40,678 nucleotides of DNA from an uncultured Clostridia bacterium (GTDB lineage: Bacteria > Bacillota > Clostridia > Christensenellales > Aristaeellaceae): positions 1 through 40,678 of the forward strand of contig CAMNGW010000007.1 in assembly GCA_946538615.1 (NCBI GenBank), written 5' to 3'. Shown piece after piece: positions 4,505 to 40,051 of this stretch. Numbering within the stretch: the stretch's first letter is position 1; each line of letters begins with the position of its first letter. Position numbers and translations under genes: made by a program. The notes below the pieces were generated by a model. The model did not search any database. It saw only the letters and a program-made list of their open reading frames with translations, and had not been told where the DNA came from.

Positions 4505-6046
4505 ATGGAAAGGACGTTAATGGACAGGGAGGTCCTCTGCATTCTGGATACCAGACAGATCCAGAGGTACATGTTCCATACCAATACATATATTGATACG
4601 CTCGGGGGAAGCGATCTGCTGACCCACATCCTCCGGGATGCGATTCTCTTCGCGCTTACCCATATCGACACGCCCCTTTCTGAAGATGAATATGATATTT
4701 CCGATGAGGCAGATATCAGCTGCATACCCTATTTCACATCAGATCAGATCAGGTTCCAGCTCATCATCTGTGCGGCTGGCAATGCGCTGTGCATTGTCCG
4801 GACGGGCTCGCTCGCGCAGAAAATCATCAGGAAGATATCAAGGTACTACCTTGAAACCGGCTATTCCCTGAATCTGGCTGCGGCAGCCATTGAAAAGACG
4901 GACAACATGGGGAACGATATCTTCTGTCTGTACCAGAAGCTGAACAGGATCAAGGCCGCTTCGGAGATATCCGATCCGGCAGAGGCTCTTCCGGTCGTGA
5001 TCCATGAGGCCCGCACAGGGGAGCCTGCAATCGGTTTTGACGAAGAAGCCGGCGATTATATTTCGAGGTCCTCCCAGCTGCGCCGCATTGAGGCGAAAAA
5101 ACGCGGGAAAGTGATAGGGCCCACGGAGATTATGACGGCAAAAGCAGCGGACGGGAAAGAGTACCTCGCCGTCATCCATGCCGACGGCAATAATCTGGGC
5201 ATCACGATCGGCAGTATCCTTCAGGCCACATCCGGGTATCAGGAAGGGATTCTGCTAAGGAGAAAAATCAACCGGAACATCACGACCGTGTACGGCAACG
5301 TGATGCGAAGGACCATCGGGGAACTGAAGGATTATTTTGTTTCCCTCGGTGAAAAGGCTGAAAATTTTCCCCTTGCTTTCCAGGTCATCCATCAGGCGGG
5401 GGACGATATCAACATTCTGTGCAGTGCATCGCTTGCTTTCCCTTTCCTCCGTTTTTTCTACCGCAATCTGGAAGGCTCCATGCTCTGGGACGATGGGAGA
5501 AGGAAAATCCCCCTGTATGTCTGTGCGGGCGTCTCCTTTGTGACTGTGGGCAGTACGTTCCACGCAGCGTTTATGCAAGCGGAGGAATGCTGCAAAAGCG
5601 CAAAGGCAGCGGCCAAAAAGGAAAGCAACCTCCGAAGCGGCCTTGCCGGCAACTGGATCGATTTTCAGGTCTGCGATGCCCCCAATGTGCAGGCGCTGGA
5701 CCTGCTCAGGGAGCGCTCCTATACGACCGCTTCCGGGGTCGATCTGATGATGAGGCCCTACTGCCTTGACAGGGAGGCAAAAGACTCGCCGTATGCTTTT
5801 GACAGGCTGATGGAGCGCGCATCAGCCCTGAAATCCGCGGGGCTTGACCAGAGACAGAGGAACATGGTGAAGGAAGCGTACCATTTTGGCCGGCTGGAAT
5901 TTGGCCAATGGGTCAGGTCGGCAAAAGCGCATGGACTGGATTTCACAGGTATGCTGGGATCACCTTTCTGTGCAGACGGGGACAGAAAGATGCATGCTGT
6001 CTGGTTCGATCCCGTGGAGATCATGGACTTTGTCCCTGAGAGGTAA
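4505..6046 (+). CDS. cas10: Cas10-like palm-domain protein without HD domain
   Basis: This 513-aa protein opens with LCILDTRQIQRYMFHTNTYIDTLGGSDLLTHI, the kind of N-terminus seen in Cas10/Cmr2 proteins after the HD domain. The palm domain follows: IHADGNNLG (D227) corresponds to the first metal-binding strand and HQAGDDINIL (A298-G299-D300-D301) to the GGDD motif, with the first glycine replaced by alanine. Both aspartates are kept, so cyclic oligoadenylate synthesis is possible. The C-terminal part is helical. There is no HD nuclease domain at the N-terminus, and the protein is shorter than typical type III-D Cas10. It lies 16 nt after the MATE gene and 3 nt before the Csx10-like gene. The family call rests on motifs and neighbours; the activity is inference. 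Confidence 0.8.
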   Translation: MERTLMDREVLCILDTRQIQRYMFHTNTYIDTLGGSDLLTHILRDAILFALTHIDTPLSEDEYDISDEADISCIPYFTSDQIRFQLIICAAGNALCIVRTGSLAQKIIRKISRYYLETGYSLNLAAAAIEKTDNMGNDIFCLYQKLNRIKAASEISDPAEALPVVIHEARTGEPAIGFDEEAGDYISRSSQLRRIEAKKRGKVIGPTEIMTAKAADGKEYLAVIHADGNNLGITIGSILQATSGYQEGILLRRKINRNITTVYGNVMRRTIGELKDYFVSLGEKAENFPLAFQVIHQAGDDINILCSASLAFPFLRFFYRNLEGSMLWDDGRRKIPLYVCAGVSFVTVGSTFHAAFMQAEECCKSAKAAAKKESNLRSGLAGNWIDFQVCDAPNVQALDLLRERSYTTASGVDLMMRPYCLDREAKDSPYAFDRLMERASALKSAGLDQRQRNMVKEAYHFGRLEFGQWVRSAKAHGLDFTGMLGSPFCADGDRKMHAVWFDPVEIMDFVPER

Positions 6047-27962: not shown

Positions 27963-28066
27963 CGGCTGCCGTGGGGCGTGAACCCGGGGAAGCCTGCCGG
28001 GAGGCGGAAAAGGATAGCTGTCCGGCCAGGCCCTGCTGAATGAACAAAAAGTCTGTATGATCTGAA

Positions 28067-28108
28067 GCACACAGGTTGCGTCTGCGAAACGTAGCCTGTG
28101 TGCTTTTC
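28067..28108 (+). terminator. Terminator of the fructan operon
   Basis: A perfect 9-bp stem GCACACAGG/CCTGTGTGC with a 19-base loop is followed by TTTTCTG. The gap 27963-28422 (460 bases) has no other feature I can support; the upstream extension of the next ORF into it lacks a ribosome site. Confidence 0.75.
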
Positions 28109-28422
28109 TGTGTCAGTGAACATCCCGGGGGTTATTCACGGTGAAGCGGTGCCCGCACGGCAGGGAGCTGTCAAAGGCGGATGAGCGTTTACGCTTTCCT
28201 GAGTGCCCGGCGGACAGGGGAGACGATCCGGGTGATGCGGGAGCACCTGTGCAGCGGAAAGGTAGGGAACAGAATGTGCATTCAGTCCCTGAAAAGGCCG
28301 GAAAAGGCAGACGGGGATGGTCTGTCCTCAATGGTTCCTTGCGGAGGAAAGCGGGGAAGCGGCTTGCAATCCGTGAAGATCCGGGTACAATGAATGCAGA
28401 AAAAGAAACAGGAGGCGTTTAT

Positions 28423-30777
28423 ATGAGAAATGGGTCCGGCAGGTACCGGGACACTGTACCTGGCACATCTGTCACTGTGGACGCACTGGCGGACGTGGCG
28501 GTTGCGGTTGTGGTGCTTATCGCTGTACTTCTGATCCAGTTTGTCGCAGTACCCTATGTCAATGAGACGTATCACTATACAGCGGAAACTGTGGGAATTG
28601 ATTACGGTTTATCCGGGCTTGTCAGAATCATCTTCACATCACCGCCGACAACGTGGTTCCAGACAAAGCTGCTGTCTTTTGATCTGCCGAATTATGCCTG
28701 GTACACTGCCCTGCTGCTGGCCGTTACGGTTCAGTTGATCACGGCCCATATTCAGTCCTGCATTGAGCTGTCCTGGGTGACGCGCTTTCATCCTGCCGTG
28801 CAGGTTGCTGTCCGGTTCCTCAAGGCATGGCTGATGACATCGTTGATGATGTCCCTTCTGACATTGGCGCTGATAACTGTTTGTCCTCAGAATGTGCCCC
28901 TGCTCTACCAGCTCTTTGAGATGTTCCTGTTCTGCCTGCCGGGCCTGATCCATACCATCATACGGTCCAGAAGGCCCAGGAAGACAAGACCCTCCCTCTG
29001 GGCGGGTCTGCCCCTGATGACTGTCAATGCACTTCTGGCTCTGCTGATGGTGGGCTATCCCCTGGTAGGCTCCCTTCTGCTGATCGCGGCAGACTATCTG
29101 AGCACACAATGGAGCGCACCGGGAACAGATACAAAACGAATGGACCGGGAGCGGCCCTTTGAGCGGCTGGCTGCGGTGGTCATATCCTCGGTGGCCATTG
29201 CTGTCATTGGGGCGGTCTTCATTATGCCGCAAGTGAAGATGCACGGACCGACCATAGAGACACACTATGAGTATTACAGTGTCAAAGCCATTGAGGCAGA
29301 CGGGCGGCGGGCCGTGTTCCTGCGTTCAGATGGTGCCGCTGTTGACCAGAACAACCGGGTCTATACGGATCATGTCCGTCAGGTCTCGCTGTGCACTTCC
29401 AATGCCTTTTTCCTGAAAGATAACGGAGACCTGGTTGTCGTTTCATCACCTGAATACGGACCTGCTCCATTTCTCAAGGACATTGTCTGGACCGATTCCT
29501 TTGATGACGTCCTGATCGCCGTCGACGGGAAGGGCAACCTTTGGGGGTACGGTGACCTGACGGGCTATCTGCCGGAAGGTGCATACTGTGCCAAGCCAAC
29601 GCTGATTGCGGAGAATCTGCACCTGGTGCAGGCCGATATCGGACCGGACCATATCCTGATGATTGACGGGGATGGCAATCTGTATGGCATGGGCGGGAAC
29701 AAAACGGGCCAGCTTGGCAATGGTGCCTGTGCCATAAAGCCCCAGCCCGTCAGCCAGATTATGGCAGGCGTTCAGCAAGCCAAGGCGGGGAACGGCTTTT
29801 CTCTGGCCCTTTTGAAGGACGGGACTGTCTGGGGGTGGGGGCGCAATGACGTCGGCCAGCTTGGTACAGGGGTCAGGATCAGAAAGTTCACCATCGGAAG
29901 GGGCTATGCTGTCAATGACGGGCTTGCCTTTGTGCCTGAGCCGACTCAGCTTTCCTTCGCTGATACCGCCATTGTGCAGATTGCAGTCGGAGCAGAAGGG
30001 GCTTTTGCCCTTGACAGTGAACAGAACATGTGGGTGTGGGGAAAGAATGTGAACAGCGAATCCATCGCGGAGCCTGTAAAGAAATGGCACAGCGTGGCAT
30101 GGATTGCAGACAACAAGGTCCAGCAAGGGGTCCTTGACCAGATCTGCAACTATGTGGCTGACGATGGGAAGGCTTATAAGGTTGCACCGGGCCAATTGCA
30201 GGAGAGCGATACAACGACAGAAACCATCGTGCTGGTCTATGACCCGATGAGCCCCGACTGGATGCCAAAACCAGTGGAGGAAATCAGTACCCGTATGGAG
30301 GAATGGCTGAAAAGCCTCCATATTTTCCCCGAACCTGAACCGGAAGCGGCACCTGAACCCATTGTCTCTGTTATCAGAGCTCCTGAGCGGAGGGACCGGT
30401 CCTGCGAGCTCCAGTTCTTCGGCGGGCATATGTACCAGATCATTCCTGAATACATGTATATGAAGAATGCACAGAGCTATTGTGAGAGCATGGGCGGACA
30501 TCTGGCGACCATTACCTCGGCAGAAGAGCACCAGTTTCTCACGGCCATGGTGGAATCAACAGATGGCGAATATGGAAGATTCTTCAGCATTGGCTTAACA
30601 AACGATCAGAACTTCGCCTGGGTCACAGGTGAATCCACAGCATATCTCAGCAAGCTGAATCTCCGGCCCGCCTATACACTTGAAAACGGTGAGGGATATA
30701 TCAGTCAGGACGGAAAGCTGAATGTGGGCGCAATCATCAAGCATCCGTTCATTTGTGAATGGGATTTCGATGAATGA
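28423..30777 (+). CDS. Membrane protein with RCC1-like repeats and C-terminal C-type lectin domain
   Basis: The start is set at the ATG with AGGAGGCG upstream (MRNGSGRYRD), 94 codons inside the ORF-track call, giving 784 aa. The N-terminal 280 residues contain about five or six hydrophobic helices. After the last one (VISSVAIAVIGAVFIMPQV) comes an extracellular part with degenerate RCC1 propeller repeats, clearest in AKAGNGFSLALLKDGTVWGWGRNDVGQLG and ILMIDGDGNLYGMGGNKTGQLG. A proline/glutamate linker (PEPEPEAAPEP) leads to a C-type lectin-like domain from about residue 664: NAQSYCESMGGHLATITSAEE, IGLTNDQNFAWVTGE, FICEWDFDE. It is probably a surface-recognition protein. The ligand is unknown, and the calcium-site EPN motif of true lectins is not evident. 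Confidence 0.85.
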   Translation: MRNGSGRYRDTVPGTSVTVDALADVAVAVVVLIAVLLIQFVAVPYVNETYHYTAETVGIDYGLSGLVRIIFTSPPTTWFQTKLLSFDLPNYAWYTALLLAVTVQLITAHIQSCIELSWVTRFHPAVQVAVRFLKAWLMTSLMMSLLTLALITVCPQNVPLLYQLFEMFLFCLPGLIHTIIRSRRPRKTRPSLWAGLPLMTVNALLALLMVGYPLVGSLLLIAADYLSTQWSAPGTDTKRMDRERPFERLAAVVISSVAIAVIGAVFIMPQVKMHGPTIETHYEYYSVKAIEADGRRAVFLRSDGAAVDQNNRVYTDHVRQVSLCTSNAFFLKDNGDLVVVSSPEYGPAPFLKDIVWTDSFDDVLIAVDGKGNLWGYGDLTGYLPEGAYCAKPTLIAENLHLVQADIGPDHILMIDGDGNLYGMGGNKTGQLGNGACAIKPQPVSQIMAGVQQAKAGNGFSLALLKDGTVWGWGRNDVGQLGTGVRIRKFTIGRGYAVNDGLAFVPEPTQLSFADTAIVQIAVGAEGAFALDSEQNMWVWGKNVNSESIAEPVKKWHSVAWIADNKVQQGVLDQICNYVADDGKAYKVAPGQLQESDTTTETIVLVYDPMSPDWMPKPVEEISTRMEEWLKSLHIFPEPEPEAAPEPIVSVIRAPERRDRSCELQFFGGHMYQIIPEYMYMKNAQSYCESMGGHLATITSAEEHQFLTAMVESTDGEYGRFFSIGLTNDQNFAWVTGESTAYLSKLNLRPAYTLENGEGYISQDGKLNVGAIIKHPFICEWDFDE

Positions 30778-30964: not shown

Positions 30965-31680
30965 ATGAAAATATGGTTGATTCACACTGCTGCTGGCCAT
31001 GGTGCTTGCGTCTGGCAGCACGGGCAAGGGAAGGGCGGACATGATTCCTGCCCGCGGCGAGGGACAGACCGGCTTTCTGGCTGTGGTGCTGTGTGAACTT
31101 CTGACTGTGCGGCACGAGCCCAGCGCTTCTTCAGATGCCGTGAAAACGCTGCATTTCGGTGACGTGATCATTGTTCAGCCGCAGACAAGCGGATGGGTCA
31201 CCTGCTTCCTTTCCCGGATGATGTGGATGGAAGCTGCGCGGGCTGGGTCAATGAGGATGACCTGCCCATAGATCCCGACGGGTTCAGTACCAGGGCGCAG
31301 ACTCCGGTGCATGCATGGAACGATATGGCAGCTCTGCGACTTGCACGGATGGATAAAGACACGCTGCTTCCCATTCTGAAAACCGAAGGGAACTGGCTCC
31401 TGGCCGGTCTGTGTGGCGCTGTCGCGGATCAGACCGGAAGACAGAATGGGGAACGGTTTGAAACCACGATCATGCTGGAAGGCATGGAGGAAACGGTACA
31501 TTGCGAACACATCATCAATACCGGGCACGGGATTGAAATGGACTATGACTATGAAAACTTCCTTCGCCGGAGCAAAGCGGACCGGGAATGCTTCGTTCCT
31601 CTTTACGGTGCCCCTCAGGAGCCCACGGATGATCTGAAAGTGGCATTCAGCTCCCAGGATGCCGATGCTGCCGCAGAATG
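30965..31680 (+). pseudogene. Frameshifted secreted SH3b-domain protein
   Basis: Three frames together give one protein. ATGAAAATATGG starts a signal peptide; a shift then gives FTLLLAMVLASGS and an SH3b domain (LLTVRHEPSASSDAVKTLHFGDVIIVQPQTSGWVTCFL). Near 31205-31215 another single-base shift is needed to continue DDVDGSCAGWVNEDDLPIDP and a C-terminal domain with MEETVHCEHIINTGHGIEMDYDYENFLRRSKADRECFVPLY. The two ORF-track pieces (30999 and 31193) are the fragments. The EMDYDYExF...DRECF pattern is familiar from secreted proteins of gut Clostridia. The end is set where the recognisable sequence stops. Confidence 0.65.
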
Positions 31681-32181
31681 TCATACCTGCTGCCAATGGG
31701 TGTATCGTGGCAAGGGAAAAATGCACGACCGAAGGCCCCGGAGGCTTTGGGGCGCGGATCGGACACATGATGAACACTTTCGCCTTCATCAGCGCACAGG
31801 GACAGTAAGGCCGGATGGCAGCCAGTATGCCTGCGATTGCCGTTTCACTCAACAGGCCCGGGGACGTTTCTTCCCGGGCCTTCTGTGCCCCTGCAGTCCT
31901 GACGCACTGAAGGCATGCTGCACTTTTATGCGGCACGGAACATGGTGAAAGGCCGTCTGGCGGACATGTTCTTGTGGACCTCTGGCACAAATACGGCAGT
32001 CTGCCTGTAAAGCCAAAGGAGTGTATTGAAATCGGCGCAGATACTGAGGAACACTAAGGATCAAAGGATCTGAAGAGGAGAGATCATGGCATCGGGACAA
32101 GAGCAACAGCGAGTTGCTTGCTGTTCTGCTCCGGACAGGCGATAATTGAACTGCACCAGTCAAAGAAAGGAGGCCTGCTCA
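31681..32181. other. About 500 bases without a supported gene
   Basis: The 31193 ORF continues here in cysteine- and arginine-rich sequence that looks like noise. One frame before 32057 reads GGHVLVDLWHKYGSLPVKPKECIEIGADTEEH and stop, which may be the tail of another decayed gene. I cannot name it. The ribosome site of the XRE gene (GGAGG) lies at the right end. Confidence 0.4.
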
Positions 32182-33033: not shown

Positions 33034-34743
33034 TCATCCCTTCCGGATCAGGCATTCTTTCTCTTTGAAAGCGAATCCATATTTCAGAATTTTCTCTTTC
33101 GGAACCCCACGGGAGAGCAGCGCCGTCTCATACTGCTTTTCTTCAATCTGTTTCAGCGCGTTTGCTGCAGTGTCTTCCAGCGAACTCTCGTCATCTTCTT
33201 TGTCAAACACTTTGAACTCCAAAATAGCCGCGGGCTGGTCTGTCTTTTTAGGGACCATCATGACATCGTACCTGCCGTACCCGCTTTCCCGGTTGGATGT
33301 AATTTCATAGTCACGCATGTTTTCCGCCAGGAGCCCAAGTACAAGACCGTGATAAAAATTCTCCGGCATCCGACCAGAAGGCCGTTTCCCACCGTCAAAA
33401 TAACTCATGCTGTTCATCATGATCTCGTTCAGTGAACGACGTATGCCACGGGTGTCTCCCTTAAGCAGGGCTTCCGTGAAAGGAGACAATCCGCCGGATG
33501 TCTGTGCAAACCAGTCCCGGAACATGATTCTGAACATGCGCCTGACTTCGAGATTGGTCAGCTTCAGCGTGTAGAGCCGGTCTGTCCCTTCCCTGACAGC
33601 TTCCTTCTCTGTCATTGCGGTAACAATTTTCACGTACCCGGTTGCAAGCAGCAGGCTCCAGACCGCATCTGCGTTAGTATCCAGTTCGTTATAGATGATC
33701 TGTTCATTAATAGGTACGGTTACTTCTCCGCCGTTCATCAGGACCTCAAACAGACTCTTCATCTCCGGAACCCCCTGCCGGAGAAGTCTGGCAATCAGAC
33801 CGTTGCCACTGGAGTTGGCCCAGTATGTATCCAGTGTCCGGAAATTCAGATAGTTGGTCACAGACCAGGGATTGTAGATGTCCTGTACACCGCCAAAGGA
33901 AAACCCGTCATACCAGGTTTTGACTTCCTGCTTGTCTGCTTCGACAAAACCCTGCTGATCCAGCGCGTCAAAAACCTCATCTTCCGTAAATCCGAAACAG
34001 GTTGTGTAAAATGGGGATGTTGTCGTGATCACAGTCAGATTATTTAAATCAGAAAAAACGGATTCCATGCTCACGCGGGTAATTCCTGTCATGATGCCCT
34101 GCTCCATAGACATGTTGGTCTTAAAAGCGTTGTTGAACATGGTCCGGGTAAAGACCACCAGCTCATCCCAGAAACCATGAATATAAGCTTCCTGCAAAGG
34201 GGTATCATATTCATCCAGCAGGATCAGAACTTTCTTTCCGTGAATCTTTTCCAGCAGCGTTGAAAGCAAATTCAGGGACAGGGCTGCGTCATCATCCCGC
34301 ATATCTTCCCGGATCTGGTCGAGGGCTGCCTGCTCGTTCCGGTCCAGTATGTCTGTTCTGTACAGTTCAGGATGCGTGGAAAACAATTTGACAATCGTCT
34401 TCTTCATCTGAATCATCGTGCTTGCAAAGGTGCTTCCTTTGATGCCTGCAAAGCTCAGAAAAATCACTGGCCACTTTCCCTGCTGTGCCTGCATTCCTGG
34501 ATATTCCCAGACTTTCAGTCCCTCAAACAGTTCCCCGCGGTTCGCGTATTTATTTGAAAAAAAACAGTTCAGCATGGACATGTTAAGGGTTTTGCCGAAT
34601 CGCCTGGGCCGAGTGATCAGAGTAACTGCATCGTGTCGTTCCCACCAGTCACGGATCAGTCCCGACTTGTCCACATAAAAATCACCATTGTTCCGCAGCA
34701 TTTCAAAGTCCTGAATCCCTGTACCGATTTCCCGTTTCATCAT
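33034..34743 (-). CDS. AAA-ATPase-like / PD-(D/E)XK nuclease-like protein
   Basis: This is a 569-aa protein of the AAA-ATPase_like plus DUF1703 family that is common and often multicopy in gut anaerobes. The N-terminal part has FYVDKSGLIRDWWERHDAVTLITRPRRFGKTLNMSML, where RPRRFGKT is the modified Walker A, and VLILLDEYDTPLQEA as Walker B. The C-terminal part carries YGRYDVMMVPKK and AAILEFKVF, the D and ExK of a PD-(D/E)XK nuclease fold. The biological role is not established; a link to defence or mobile DNA is often proposed. The start codon is ATGATG, with no Shine-Dalgarno sequence, because the end of an IscB-type element stands immediately upstream. Confidence 0.9.
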   Translation of the reverse strand: MMKREIGTGIQDFEMLRNNGDFYVDKSGLIRDWWERHDAVTLITRPRRFGKTLNMSMLNCFFSNKYANRGELFEGLKVWEYPGMQAQQGKWPVIFLSFAGIKGSTFASTMIQMKKTIVKLFSTHPELYRTDILDRNEQAALDQIREDMRDDDAALSLNLLSTLLEKIHGKKVLILLDEYDTPLQEAYIHGFWDELVVFTRTMFNNAFKTNMSMEQGIMTGITRVSMESVFSDLNNLTVITTTSPFYTTCFGFTEDEVFDALDQQGFVEADKQEVKTWYDGFSFGGVQDIYNPWSVTNYLNFRTLDTYWANSSGNGLIARLLRQGVPEMKSLFEVLMNGGEVTVPINEQIIYNELDTNADAVWSLLLATGYVKIVTAMTEKEAVREGTDRLYTLKLTNLEVRRMFRIMFRDWFAQTSGGLSPFTEALLKGDTRGIRRSLNEIMMNSMSYFDGGKRPSGRMPENFYHGLVLGLLAENMRDYEITSNRESGYGRYDVMMVPKKTDQPAAILEFKVFDKEDDESSLEDTAANALKQIEEKQYETALLSRGVPKEKILKYGFAFKEKECLIRKG

Positions 34744-35410: not shown

Positions 35411-36132
35411 TGGCTGACTCATCTTTTTCCGTTTAACTGTCTTCAGGCCAGGGAACCGTACAGGGAAACCGTTTGACCTTTACGGTCCGTTTCCGGGTGC
35501 TGTCCTGATCCGGATTGGCTGTGTCTCTTAATTATATCCAACCCTGAAACCATTGAAAAGATCAGAGCACCTCCTGTACAATGACCATACCTGGAGACTC
35601 CCTGATAATGCTGCTTGTCATCATACCGCATTCTGATAAAGGATATGTGAGCAAGGAAGTCCTGAATGATGCAGCCTATCATCCTCAGCAGCAGAGTTGG
35701 GATACTCAATCGGCCATTTGTGATGTATCTTTTCACCTACGAGGATTATCCCTTAACACAGGGCGTGTTATATTTCTCCCTTCCCAGTGACAGGCGGATG
35801 CTCTTATTCAGGCTTAAGTAAACCTCACTGAAGGGAAGTGGATTTTCCCGGACACTGTGCTGTTGCCGGGCTGCATTGTCCTGGCACCTTCAGGTCATAT
35901 ATAATGCACAGACAGGGGAGCCAAACGCAGGACCTGACAATTCTGACTCTGATGTCAGATTGTGACATGATTGGCTGAAAGCATCAGTGATGCGGACATC
36001 TGTGCAAAAGGCAGGAAAACATACATGTGCGGCGAAATAACCATGCAAAAATGAGACTGAATGAATGGATGACATATCCGGACATATGACAGACAAAAAA
36101 GGAAGCATTCTTTTACAGGAGGGGTGAAAACA
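35411..36132. other. About 720 bases without a supported gene
   Basis: The ORF-track entries here (97, 69, 89 and 100 aa) show no family pattern. A 51-codon frame at 35666-35821 reads as protein-like (YLFTYEDYPLTQGVLYFSLPSDRRMLLFRLK) and could be a gene fragment. The ribosome site for the next gene (AGGAGGGG) is at the right end. Confidence 0.4.
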
Positions 36133-37779
36133 ATGAATGACCACACAACAGTGCGCCACACCTGTTTTTTTGTCGCCTTTCTCCTGCTGGCAGGCGTGGC
36201 AAATGTGCTGAGCCGCTCCGGGATTGCGGTGCTGGAGTCGCTGTGCACCGGCTGCAATTATCTGATCTATGTCGGCCTGCTGCTTTACTGGTTCCAGTCC
36301 GTCAGGGCGAGGCTGCTGCCGTCCCGGACGAAAGACTGGATGATCGGTGCGGCACTTCTGCTGCTGTTTTACCAGCTGCTGCGGGTATTCGCGTACCGCT
36401 TTGCGACGGAACCGGTAGAGGTACGCTACCTGGTCTACCTGTTTTTTGTCCCAATGACGCTGGTCCCGACGCTGTTTCTGATGACCTGCCTGCGCATCTG
36501 CCGGGGGAACCGGCCGGGACGCTGGGACGAAGCCCTGCTGCTGATTCCGCCCGGCCTCCTATCACTGATCGCCCTGACTAACGATGTCCACTTTTGGGTG
36601 TACCGGCCAGAGGTGGACCTGCCCGCTTTCGCTGTCCAGACGGGCACCTATACAAGGGGCCTGGTGTTCTACACGCTCTATGCCTGGATGATCCTGAGCT
36701 TTGCAGTGGGCCTTATTCTGCTGTTCCGGGAAACGAGGATGCAGGCCAGGAAAGCGCTTCCGTACCTGATTGCTGTCGTGGGTCTGTGGCTGGGCGCGTT
36801 GACGGTGTTTGTCCGGGTGATTGACGGGACCCAGCTCCCGCGCATGTACAATAATCCGGATATCAACATGTTCGGCATGCTTGGCGTGCTGGAAGTCTGC
36901 ATCCGGTACCACATGATCCCGCACAACGCGGCCTACGCTGACTTTTTTGCTTCGCTCCGGACATCTGCTATGGTGACAGACGTGGCACTGCGGCCCGTCT
37001 TCCGCTCCGGCGGCGGACTTGCAGCAGATACGGAGCAGCTCCGGGCGGCGCTCGCCTCACCCGTATGGCTGACACCCGACCTGAAGCTGTCCGGACAGCT
37101 GGTCCGCGGCGGCTATGGCTTCTGGACGGAGGATGAGACCGATATGCACCGGGCACAGGAACAGCTGGAGGAGGCCAACGAACTCATTGAATCGGAAAAC
37201 AGCCTGATCAAGGCGGAGACGGAGCAGCGGGAGAAGGACGCCTGGCTGCAGTCCCGTCACCGTATTTATCACGAGGTCGCGGAGATCCTGTATCCCTGTC
37301 AGCAGCGCATTGGAGGGCTGCTGGGACAGATGAGGCCAGACACGCCGTTTTTCCGGGAGCAGCTGGCTGAGGTGTCTGTGCTCAATGCCTATGTCAAGCG
37401 GAAGACGAACCTGCTCCTGCTGTCTTCGGAGCGGGACTGCCTGACTACCCAGGCACTGTTCCTGGCGCTGAGGGAGTCCGCGAGCTATCTGTCGCTCGCC
37501 GGGCTGCAAACTGACGCGCGGCAGCCGGAGGCGGAGCAGACTTTGCCCTCTGCCACCGTAATTGCCCTGTACGATGCCTTCGAAACGGTGGCCGAGCAGC
37601 TGATGGGTCAAGCCTCCTCCCTGATGGTTTCCTGGCAGGGCGGTGCCCTCGTTCTGGCGACGGGGACAGCGCATGTTCCTGACCTGGAAGGCCTGCCCGT
37701 TCCGGTGCGTGTGAGGGAGGAGGAGGGCATCCTGTATCTGGACCTCCTTGCCGGTGAGAAGGGCGGTGAGCTGACATGA
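36133..37779 (+). CDS. Seven-helix membrane sensor with kinase-like dimerisation region, no ATPase domain
   Basis: This 548-aa protein has an N-terminal block of about seven transmembrane helices over roughly 230 residues, similar to 7TM histidine-kinase sensor modules (FFVAFLLLAGVANVLSRSGIAVLESLCTGCNYLIYVGLLLYW). A coiled-coil stretch follows (AQEQLEEANELIESENSLIKAETEQREKDAWLQSRHRIYHEVAEIL) where a dimerisation helix would be, and then a C-terminal domain with an HATPase-like outline but no N, G1 or G2 boxes. Its last codons overlap the next gene by 4 nt (ATGA), so it is almost certainly part of one sensor with it. The start at 36133 is spaced from AGGAGG better than the GTG of the ORF track. 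Confidence 0.8.
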   Translation: MNDHTTVRHTCFFVAFLLLAGVANVLSRSGIAVLESLCTGCNYLIYVGLLLYWFQSVRARLLPSRTKDWMIGAALLLLFYQLLRVFAYRFATEPVEVRYLVYLFFVPMTLVPTLFLMTCLRICRGNRPGRWDEALLLIPPGLLSLIALTNDVHFWVYRPEVDLPAFAVQTGTYTRGLVFYTLYAWMILSFAVGLILLFRETRMQARKALPYLIAVVGLWLGALTVFVRVIDGTQLPRMYNNPDINMFGMLGVLEVCIRYHMIPHNAAYADFFASLRTSAMVTDVALRPVFRSGGGLAADTEQLRAALASPVWLTPDLKLSGQLVRGGYGFWTEDETDMHRAQEQLEEANELIESENSLIKAETEQREKDAWLQSRHRIYHEVAEILYPCQQRIGGLLGQMRPDTPFFREQLAEVSVLNAYVKRKTNLLLLSSERDCLTTQALFLALRESASYLSLAGLQTDARQPEAEQTLPSATVIALYDAFETVAEQLMGQASSLMVSWQGGALVLATGTAHVPDLEGLPVPVRVREEEGILYLDLLAGEKGGELT

Positions 37780-39035
37780 CAGTCAAGGAAGCCATGCTGT
37801 CCGCCGCGCGGCTGCCCGTGCTGGGCATGCTGTTCCTGCTCCTGACGGCTCAGATGGCAGTGGTTATCGCTGCCTTCCGGGACAGCCGGAGCCGTAACTT
37901 CAAAGGTGCTGTGCTGGCCGTTTTTCTTCTCAGCGCATCCGTTTTCTGGTCCTGTCTTACCGTGATCAGCTGGAGGAACAACTATCCCGGCTGGACCCGG
38001 AAGCCCCCTGCCTGGCTGGATGCGGTCTGCGCCTGCCCGGTGCGGGCAGTTTGGGTATTTGAGGCTGTCATTGCCGTAATCCTGTCCTTCGAAGTCTGGA
38101 GCATCTTCCGATACCGGAGGAGCCATGTCACGCTGGGCAGCGTCAAGCAGGCCATGGACCTGCTGCCGGTGGGCATTGCCTTTGGTGAGCCTGACGGGAC
38201 AGTGATTTTCCGCAACCTGGTGATGGACCATCTCTGTGTGTCACTGACCGGGAAGCTGCTCACCGACTGGAGAGCCTTTCAGGCGGCAGCGGGCGGGGAA
38301 CAGGTGCCTGTGGAGGGCAGAATCTGGCAGCTGTGCAGCCGGGCGACGCCGGGAAGCGCTCTCACGCAGCTGACTGCCACGGACATTACGGAACAGGCCG
38401 GCATCCTCAAGGACCTTCAGGAGAAGAACCGGAAGCTGAAGGACATTCACCTGCGTCTGGAAATCTACAACCGCCAGGCTGAGCGGATCATTATCGCACA
38501 GGAACTGCTGAATGCAAGGATGTCAGTGCATGACGAGCTGGGCAGTGTGCTGCTGGAAAGCCGCCATTACCTGAGCGAACCGGCCTCTATCGATGAAGAA
38601 CTGCTGCTGCAGGCGCTGAAGAACGCCAACACCTACCTGCTGCGGGAATATGAGAGGGATGACACCGCTTCCGATCCTCTGACAGAAGCCATCAGCATGG
38701 CGGGGGCCATCGGCGTGAAGGTGGAATTGACCGGTCTTCCGCCTGCGGAGGAACGCCCCCGGGAGATTCTGGCCGCCGCTGTCCGGGAATGTGCTGCCAA
38801 TACGGTCAAGCATGCCGGGGGAGACCGCCTTGCGGTGGATGCACGGCGTGCGGATTCCGGGTACACCTTCATCTTGTCCAACAATGGACGGCCACCTGAT
38901 GCACCCATCCGGGAGACCGGCGGTCTGCTCTCCCTGCGGACACTGGTGGAGAGGCAGGGAGGGACCATGCAAACGGGATCCTGCCCGTGTTTCCGCCTGT
39001 CGGTCACAGTCCCTGGAGCAGGGGACACGGCATGA
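37776..39035 (+). CDS. Sensor histidine kinase of the NarX/HisKA_3 kind
   Basis: The 419-aa protein has two or three N-terminal membrane helices, a short PAS-like domain (LLPVGIAFGEPDGTVIFRNLVMDHLC), and a helical dimerisation region with the phospho-acceptor H252 in MSVHDELGSVLLESRHYL. The HATPase part has VRECAANTVKHAGGDRLAVDA (N box), SNNGRPPD and TGGLLSLRTLVERQGGTM. The HDxLG form matches kinases that pair with LuxR-type regulators, one of which follows at 39338. It overlaps the upstream 7TM gene by ATGA, so the two proteins probably work as a heteromeric receptor. The signal is unknown. Confidence 0.88.
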   Translation: MTVKEAMLSAARLPVLGMLFLLLTAQMAVVIAAFRDSRSRNFKGAVLAVFLLSASVFWSCLTVISWRNNYPGWTRKPPAWLDAVCACPVRAVWVFEAVIAVILSFEVWSIFRYRRSHVTLGSVKQAMDLLPVGIAFGEPDGTVIFRNLVMDHLCVSLTGKLLTDWRAFQAAAGGEQVPVEGRIWQLCSRATPGSALTQLTATDITEQAGILKDLQEKNRKLKDIHLRLEIYNRQAERIIIAQELLNARMSVHDELGSVLLESRHYLSEPASIDEELLLQALKNANTYLLREYERDDTASDPLTEAISMAGAIGVKVELTGLPPAEERPREILAAAVRECAANTVKHAGGDRLAVDARRADSGYTFILSNNGRPPDAPIRETGGLLSLRTLVERQGGTMQTGSCPCFRLSVTVPGAGDTA

Positions 39036-39238
39036 AAGCGCAGAGCAGCTTTTGGCAGAACGGTCCACTGCAGAAGAAAAGTTTCCATGTGATGGGGCCT
39101 GCTTTTTATACAGTCCCAAATCCGGATGTTTACCGGAATGCTAAAAACAGGAAGACCGCTTCCGCATACAGGGCCCCGGCGGAAGCTCCGGCTGACGGAG
39201 GGCTGCGTACACAGGCAAAAAAAGCTGGATCCGGTCTC

Positions 39239-39288
39239 TAAAATGGGCCGTCTGGCCCATGACGGGCCGTTCTTCAGGGACCTATAAT
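39239..39288 (+). promoter_or_regulatory. Inverted repeat plus promoter before the response regulator (copy 1)
   Basis: TAAAATGGGCC-GTCT-GGCCCATGAC (39239-39263) is a perfect 7-bp inverted repeat overlapping a weak -35 (ATGACG), 18 bases before TATAAT (39283-39288). The same 25-bp element occurs at 40287-40311. It is a candidate binding site for the LuxR-type regulator. The rest of the 300-base gap after the kinase holds no gene I can support. Confidence 0.6.
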
Positions 39289-39337
39289 TATGAAAGGGAA
39301 AGTCTGATTCTTCATATTCTGCCGGGAGGTGATGCGT

Positions 39338-40051
39338 TTGGAAAAGAGAGCCAGTGTGGTCGTGGTGGATGACCAGTATGTGTCCCGGAGCTTTTTTGAG
39401 ATCCAGGTGCAGATGAGCAGGGGCTATGTGCTGGCCGCCTCCCTCTCCAGTGCGGAACAGGCCATTGCGTTTTGCATGGCGCACCAGGTGGACCTGGTCA
39501 TCATGGATGTGATGATGAAATATGGGCTGGACGGCCTCACCTGCGCGAAGGCCATCCATCACAACAATCCGGGTACCAGAATCATTCTGACCACGTCCAC
39601 GGCGGAGACCCAGTGGATCAGTGAGGCACGGGAAGCGGGGATCGAGAGTTTCTGGTTCAAGGAATACTCAGACATCCCACTGACGCAGGTTATGGACCGT
39701 ACCATGGCTGGCGAGCGTGTTTTCCCGGACAGCCCGCCCAACCCGGACTTTGGCGATGCGGTAAAGACTGATCTGAGCGACCGGGAGCTGGAGGTGCTGC
39801 GGGCACTGACCCGGAACCTCACCAACGGGGAGATCGCGGAGCAGCTGCACATTTCCCCGCACACTGTGAAGCGGCACATCGAGAATATGCTGCTGAAGAC
39901 CGGATACAAGAACCGCATCGACCTGGCGGTGAACGCCAAGGCCCTGGGCCTGGTTGTACATGAGGACGACCGTACCGAGAACAGGACGCCCAAAGGGGAA
40001 AACAAAGCAGGAAGCGGGAACTTCGGACCGTCATGGCCCTGGCGGCGCTGA
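39338..40051 (+). CDS. LuxR/NarL-type response regulator
   Basis: This protein has a receiver domain starting ASVVVVDDQYVSRSFFEIQV, with phospho-acceptor D57 in LVIMDVMMKYGLDGL. The C-terminal LuxR helix-turn-helix is LSDRELEVLRALTRNLTNGEIAEQLHISPHTVKRHIENMLLKTGYKNRIDLAVNAKALGLV. I chose the TTG at 39338 because GGAGG lies eight bases before it (MEKRASVV); ATG 39332 and GTG 39329 are alternatives but stand too close. The last 27 residues (DRTENRTPKGENKAGSGNFGPSWPWRR) do not look like a natural end: their DNA matches the ribosome-site and signal-peptide region of the secreted gene at 40537 read in another frame. Confidence 0.9.
   Translation: MEKRASVVVVDDQYVSRSFFEIQVQMSRGYVLAASLSSAEQAIAFCMAHQVDLVIMDVMMKYGLDGLTCAKAIHHNNPGTRIILTTSTAETQWISEAREAGIESFWFKEYSDIPLTQVMDRTMAGERVFPDSPPNPDFGDAVKTDLSDRELEVLRALTRNLTNGEIAEQLHISPHTVKRHIENMLLKTGYKNRIDLAVNAKALGLVVHEDDRTENRTPKGENKAGSGNFGPSWPWRR

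Follow-up and report, generated by a model that had tools for sequence, protein, structure and literature searches.

A clostridial gene joining a polytopic membrane part, an RCC1-like propeller and a C-type lectin-like domain that has lost the canonical sugar-site motifs

The window, the whole 40,678-nucleotide stretch of DNA from an uncultured Clostridia bacterium that was analysed here, carries fructan (GH32) genes, whose presence upstream of position 28423 we confirmed, followed by an unbroken open reading frame of 784 codons with an ATG start. This frame is one real bacterial gene, encoding a multi-pass membrane protein, and the features on which the argument below draws are the following:

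28064-28106, forward strand: terminator-like hairpin between the fructan genes and the gene, from folding against shuffled sequences
28364-28391, forward strand: candidate sigma-70-like promoter, TTGCAA-16-TACAAT, a sequence match not above chance
28410-28416, forward strand: Shine-Dalgarno-like AGGAGGC before the ATG at 28423, read from the sequence
28423-30777, forward strand: gene for the 784-residue protein with membrane part, RCC1-like propeller and C-type lectin-like domain (CTLD), from the open-reading-frame call and translation
28423-29223, forward strand: polytopic membrane part, residues 1-267, six to seven helices, from hydropathy and searches for families and relatives
29275-30237, forward strand: RCC1-like beta-propeller, residues ~285-605, from Pfam, phmmer against the PDB, a structure model, Foldseek and a blade profile
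30238-30399, forward strand: linker, residues ~606-659, with the Pro/Glu-rich stretch EPEPEAAPEP, from the sequence and low model confidence
30460-30756, forward strand: CTLD, residues 680-778, with the outer cysteine pair 687/778 and no EPN/QPD or WND motif, from Pfam and alignment

The sequence-only reading had set the gene apart from the fructan operon, with a terminator between them and a ribosome site of its own, and on each of these points it was borne out. The hairpin has an 18-pair stem and a folding energy of -28.8 kcal/mol (z -6.0; none of 200 shuffled sequences reached this stability) with a short T-rich tail behind it, while a GGAGG-type site stands a few nucleotides 5' of the start codon; the promoter match is of the kind expected by chance, with one site found against 1.8 expected by shuffling. 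In the two same-genus genomes that carry the operon (G001 and G008), the GH32-LamG gene is conserved at 73-74%, the next gene behind it is, by translation only, DNA topoisomerase-like in G001 and LacI-type regulator-like in G008, and neither locus matches the stretch holding the window gene. Because other genes follow the operon in both genomes, the gene at 28423-30777 is not part of it, and the neighbourhood is not a conserved operon.

The multi-helix character proposed for the N-terminal part is evident from hydropathy, which gives six strong hydrophobic segments (residues 25-43, 96-114, 136-154, 158-176, 203-221 and 249-267). Residues 195-230, a long hydrophobic stretch interrupted at its middle by Gly-Tyr-Pro, may form a hairpin, bringing the total to seven helices rather than six. 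Two loops are charged, 179-194 with six Lys/Arg and 231-247 with four; seven helices would place both inside and the C-terminus outside, the topology that we prefer, whereas a single helix at 195-230 would leave the C-terminus inside and one charged loop outside. Even with the threshold relaxed to E 10, Pfam gave no family for the membrane part, which had no credible relative in overlapping samples of 300 genomes from the family, 396 from the order and 399 from the phylum. Three family genomes gave weak N-terminal matches that were taken as chance rather than relatedness, because at two of the loci the translations look like multi-helix membrane proteins of another kind, and the match in the third contains internal stop codons. 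NCBIfam likewise held no model for the 784-residue protein.

RCC1-like repeats, also anticipated by the earlier reading, are firmly placed in the middle of the protein, where Pfam RCC1_2 (2.9e-19, 68.7 bits against a curated cut-off of 22) and RCC1 (3.3e-17, 63.2 bits against 21.7) both score over their cut-offs and phmmer against the PDB returned HERC2, UVR8 and RCC1 with E-values down to 6.8e-18; the RCC1-like domain (RLD) model WD40_RLD reached 2.1e-27, yet stayed under its 150-bit curated cut-off. Structure prediction, proposed at the outset as a check, was carried out for residues 265-649 with an alignment of 63 RCC1 relatives and with the CTLD left out. It supported the propeller (pTM 0.68), with UVR8 as the first Foldseek match (E 1.3e-15 over ~250 aligned columns) ahead of other RLD proteins, but for the ends of the modelled stretch it gave confidence below 50; the confident part covers ~359-565, with a weak spot near 485-500. 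The best PDB matches of the propeller are UVR8, RCC2, RCC1 and HERC2. Scanning with a blade profile made from these relatives places blades near 401-436, 441-487 and 515-544, and 350-378 also rises above shuffles when scanned without gaps, so that about four blades can be recognised from sequence; the flanking regions score within the shuffle range, the first and last blades being divergent. By eye the stretch can be divided into seven units, which with about four recognisable falls short of establishing a closed seven-bladed ring, and residues ~285-605 probably form a ring-shaped RCC1 domain outside the cell. A single-sequence AlphaFold model of the whole protein (pLDDT 35.5) was unusable for topology or for the CTLD fold.

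Targets of diversity-generating retroelements have a CTLD fold, and a possible link of the gene to such an element was considered for that reason. Here the predicted C-terminal domain is recognised by Pfam Lectin_C at residues 680-778 (1.2e-9, 39.3 bits against a curated cut-off of 22.6), the end of the protein matches mostly animal CTLDs in phmmer against the PDB, and the outer cysteine pair, C687 and C778, is kept; the lectin-like assignment of the earlier reading thus stands, as a fold predicted from sequence matching. When aligned with 19 relatives, the domain has RPA at the position where most carry EPS, EPN, EPD or QPD, has LNV in place of the WND that 12 of the 19 keep, and is without the long-loop Trp kept by nearly all the others. 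Judged by these three losses, sugar binding at the canonical Ca2+/sugar site, as described for CTLDs (PMC7618208), is unlikely. CTLDs lacking the Ca2+ site can bind proteins or glycans through other sites (PMC7618208), and a non-canonical ligand of either kind is possible for the window CTLD. The gene is in this respect a caution that a Lectin_C match in a bacterium does not always denote a sugar binder.

The combination had been called rare, and a survey of related genomes agrees. A Lectin_C profile found CTLDs in 31 of the 300 sampled family genomes and none in the eight other genomes of the genus, and within its own genome the window gene holds the only CTLD that the search detected. Of all open frames with a CTLD in the loci retrieved, of which several were extended and some were cut by short contigs or read in part, it alone also has RCC1 blades; conversely, the RCC1 loci retrieved from named genomes and from the genus showed no polytopic front part and no CTLD behind, with few hydrophobic segments at most. 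Viral contigs yielded no relative of the protein, the ten plasmid matches listed were confined to the propeller or slightly beyond, and a literature search found no bacterial RCC1 and C-type lectin fusion described under the terms tried. The joint RCC1 and CTLD architecture is therefore rare within the sampled genomes: taken singly its parts are common among bacteria, and the gene adds a combination met nowhere else in the survey. The survey turned up neither an ortholog nor a conserved gene neighbourhood, and hence nothing that would point to selection on the protein as a whole.

With the RLD propellers RCC1, UVR8, HERC2 and RPGR the window protein has the RCC1 repeats and fold in common, but it adds a polytopic front and a CTLD behind, and it differs from them in its roughly four sequence-recognisable blades and sub-cut-off RLD score. 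A bacterial RCC1/BLIP-II group has been described (PMC9218822). The same-genus RCC1 proteins (L002, L003, L008-L016) resemble its propeller at ~31-45% identity in matched segments, but are ~390-450 residues long, mostly with one N-terminal hydrophobic segment, and lack a CTLD; four of them (L003, L008, L010 and L014) have a common C-terminal motif, WKWTGLNLL.STW.DP.N. The CTLD proteins of the family (L105, L112, L106) and order (L133) carry Lectin_C as the window protein does, several at the C-terminus, but are without RCC1, and in the Pfam-scanned CTLD proteins the domain is joined to Big_2, CHAP or DUF6273 or accompanied by TPR-like-looking repeats. Most same-genus RCC1 and family CTLD proteins read at the N-terminus start with a signal-peptide-like segment, which in L002, L009 and L016 lies behind an uncertain start. 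By analogy only, the window CTLD is like those of dectin-1, CLEC-2 and NKG2D, which leave the canonical Ca2+ sugar site unused (PMC7618208); these are single-pass animal receptors with no propeller. As a separate observation, L105, L107, L112, L113, L118, L119 and L120 form a secreted-looking group with a C-terminal CTLD bearing EPS and WND; L105, L112 and L119 show helical repeats, TPR-like by look, and in the Pfam scan of L105 and L112 the CTLD is the sole match.

We propose, with a probability of about 0.6, that the gene encodes a surface-exposed, membrane-anchored binding protein, its C-terminus outside, probably for a protein or other non-canonical ligand and made by the joining of modules. 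The polytopic N-terminal part would anchor it in the cytoplasmic membrane, the RCC1-like propeller would serve as a rigid interaction platform, and the flexible Pro/Glu linker would display the CTLD, both domains being likely exposed at the surface. With its canonical Ca2+/sugar site lost, this tip would most likely bind a ligand on the envelope of the same cell or on a neighbour, either a protein or something else non-canonical. The gene would have arisen when modules that in relatives sit on separate, secreted-looking proteins were joined, and would exemplify the attachment of such modules to a membrane protein whose membrane part is an orphan.

Placement of the propeller and CTLD inside the cell, as a scaffold facing the cytoplasm, would agree with the six segments counted by the hydropathy windows but would put loop 231-247 and its four Lys/Arg outside; provided that 195-230 is a hairpin, the loop charges fit a C-terminus outside, most of the CTLD and RCC1 relatives that were read have a secreted look, and the outer cysteine pair of the CTLD is intact, and we prefer the outside topology for these reasons and regard the scaffold as very improbable. 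Recognition of a host or fibre ligand, suggested by the sequence-only reading, is not supported: a glycan- or fibre-binding surface lectin tied to fructan or fibre use could point to the Lectin_C match, to the fructan genes just upstream and to those CTLDs that bind glycans without a Ca2+ site (PMC7618208), but it is made unlikely by the replacement of EPN/QPD and WND, by the hairpin that separates those genes from this one, and by the other genes found next to the operon in the two same-genus genomes.

A membrane part that exceeds the needs of an anchor, and positively charged loops suited to the cytoplasmic side, would also suit a sensor that relays outside ligand binding through its six or seven helices to a cytoplasmic partner; we hold this to be doubtful, as Pfam found no output domain such as a kinase or cyclase in the protein and no partner gene was identified adjoining it. 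A receptor of a new type, in which the polytopic domain is driven from outside by an RCC1-like propeller together with a CTLD blind to sugar, is a long shot. The surface-exposed binding protein remains our preferred reading.

Elsewhere in the window, a secreted SH3-domain protein at 30967-31948 (forward strand) is apparently split over frames, with SH3_3 matched below cut-off in one frame (0.0029), which suggests either a frameshift in the gene or a fault in the assembly. The reverse strand at 33034-34743 encodes a protein with AAA-ATPase_like and PDDEXK_9 domains in a lower-GC stretch, perhaps a variable region. A HisKA_7TM protein, an unassigned 419-residue open reading frame and a response regulator whose end is of LuxR type, at 36124-40051 (forward strand) likely form a two-component cluster, and the frame at 4505-6046 (forward strand) has a weak, sub-cut-off similarity to the Cas10/Cmr2 palm domain.
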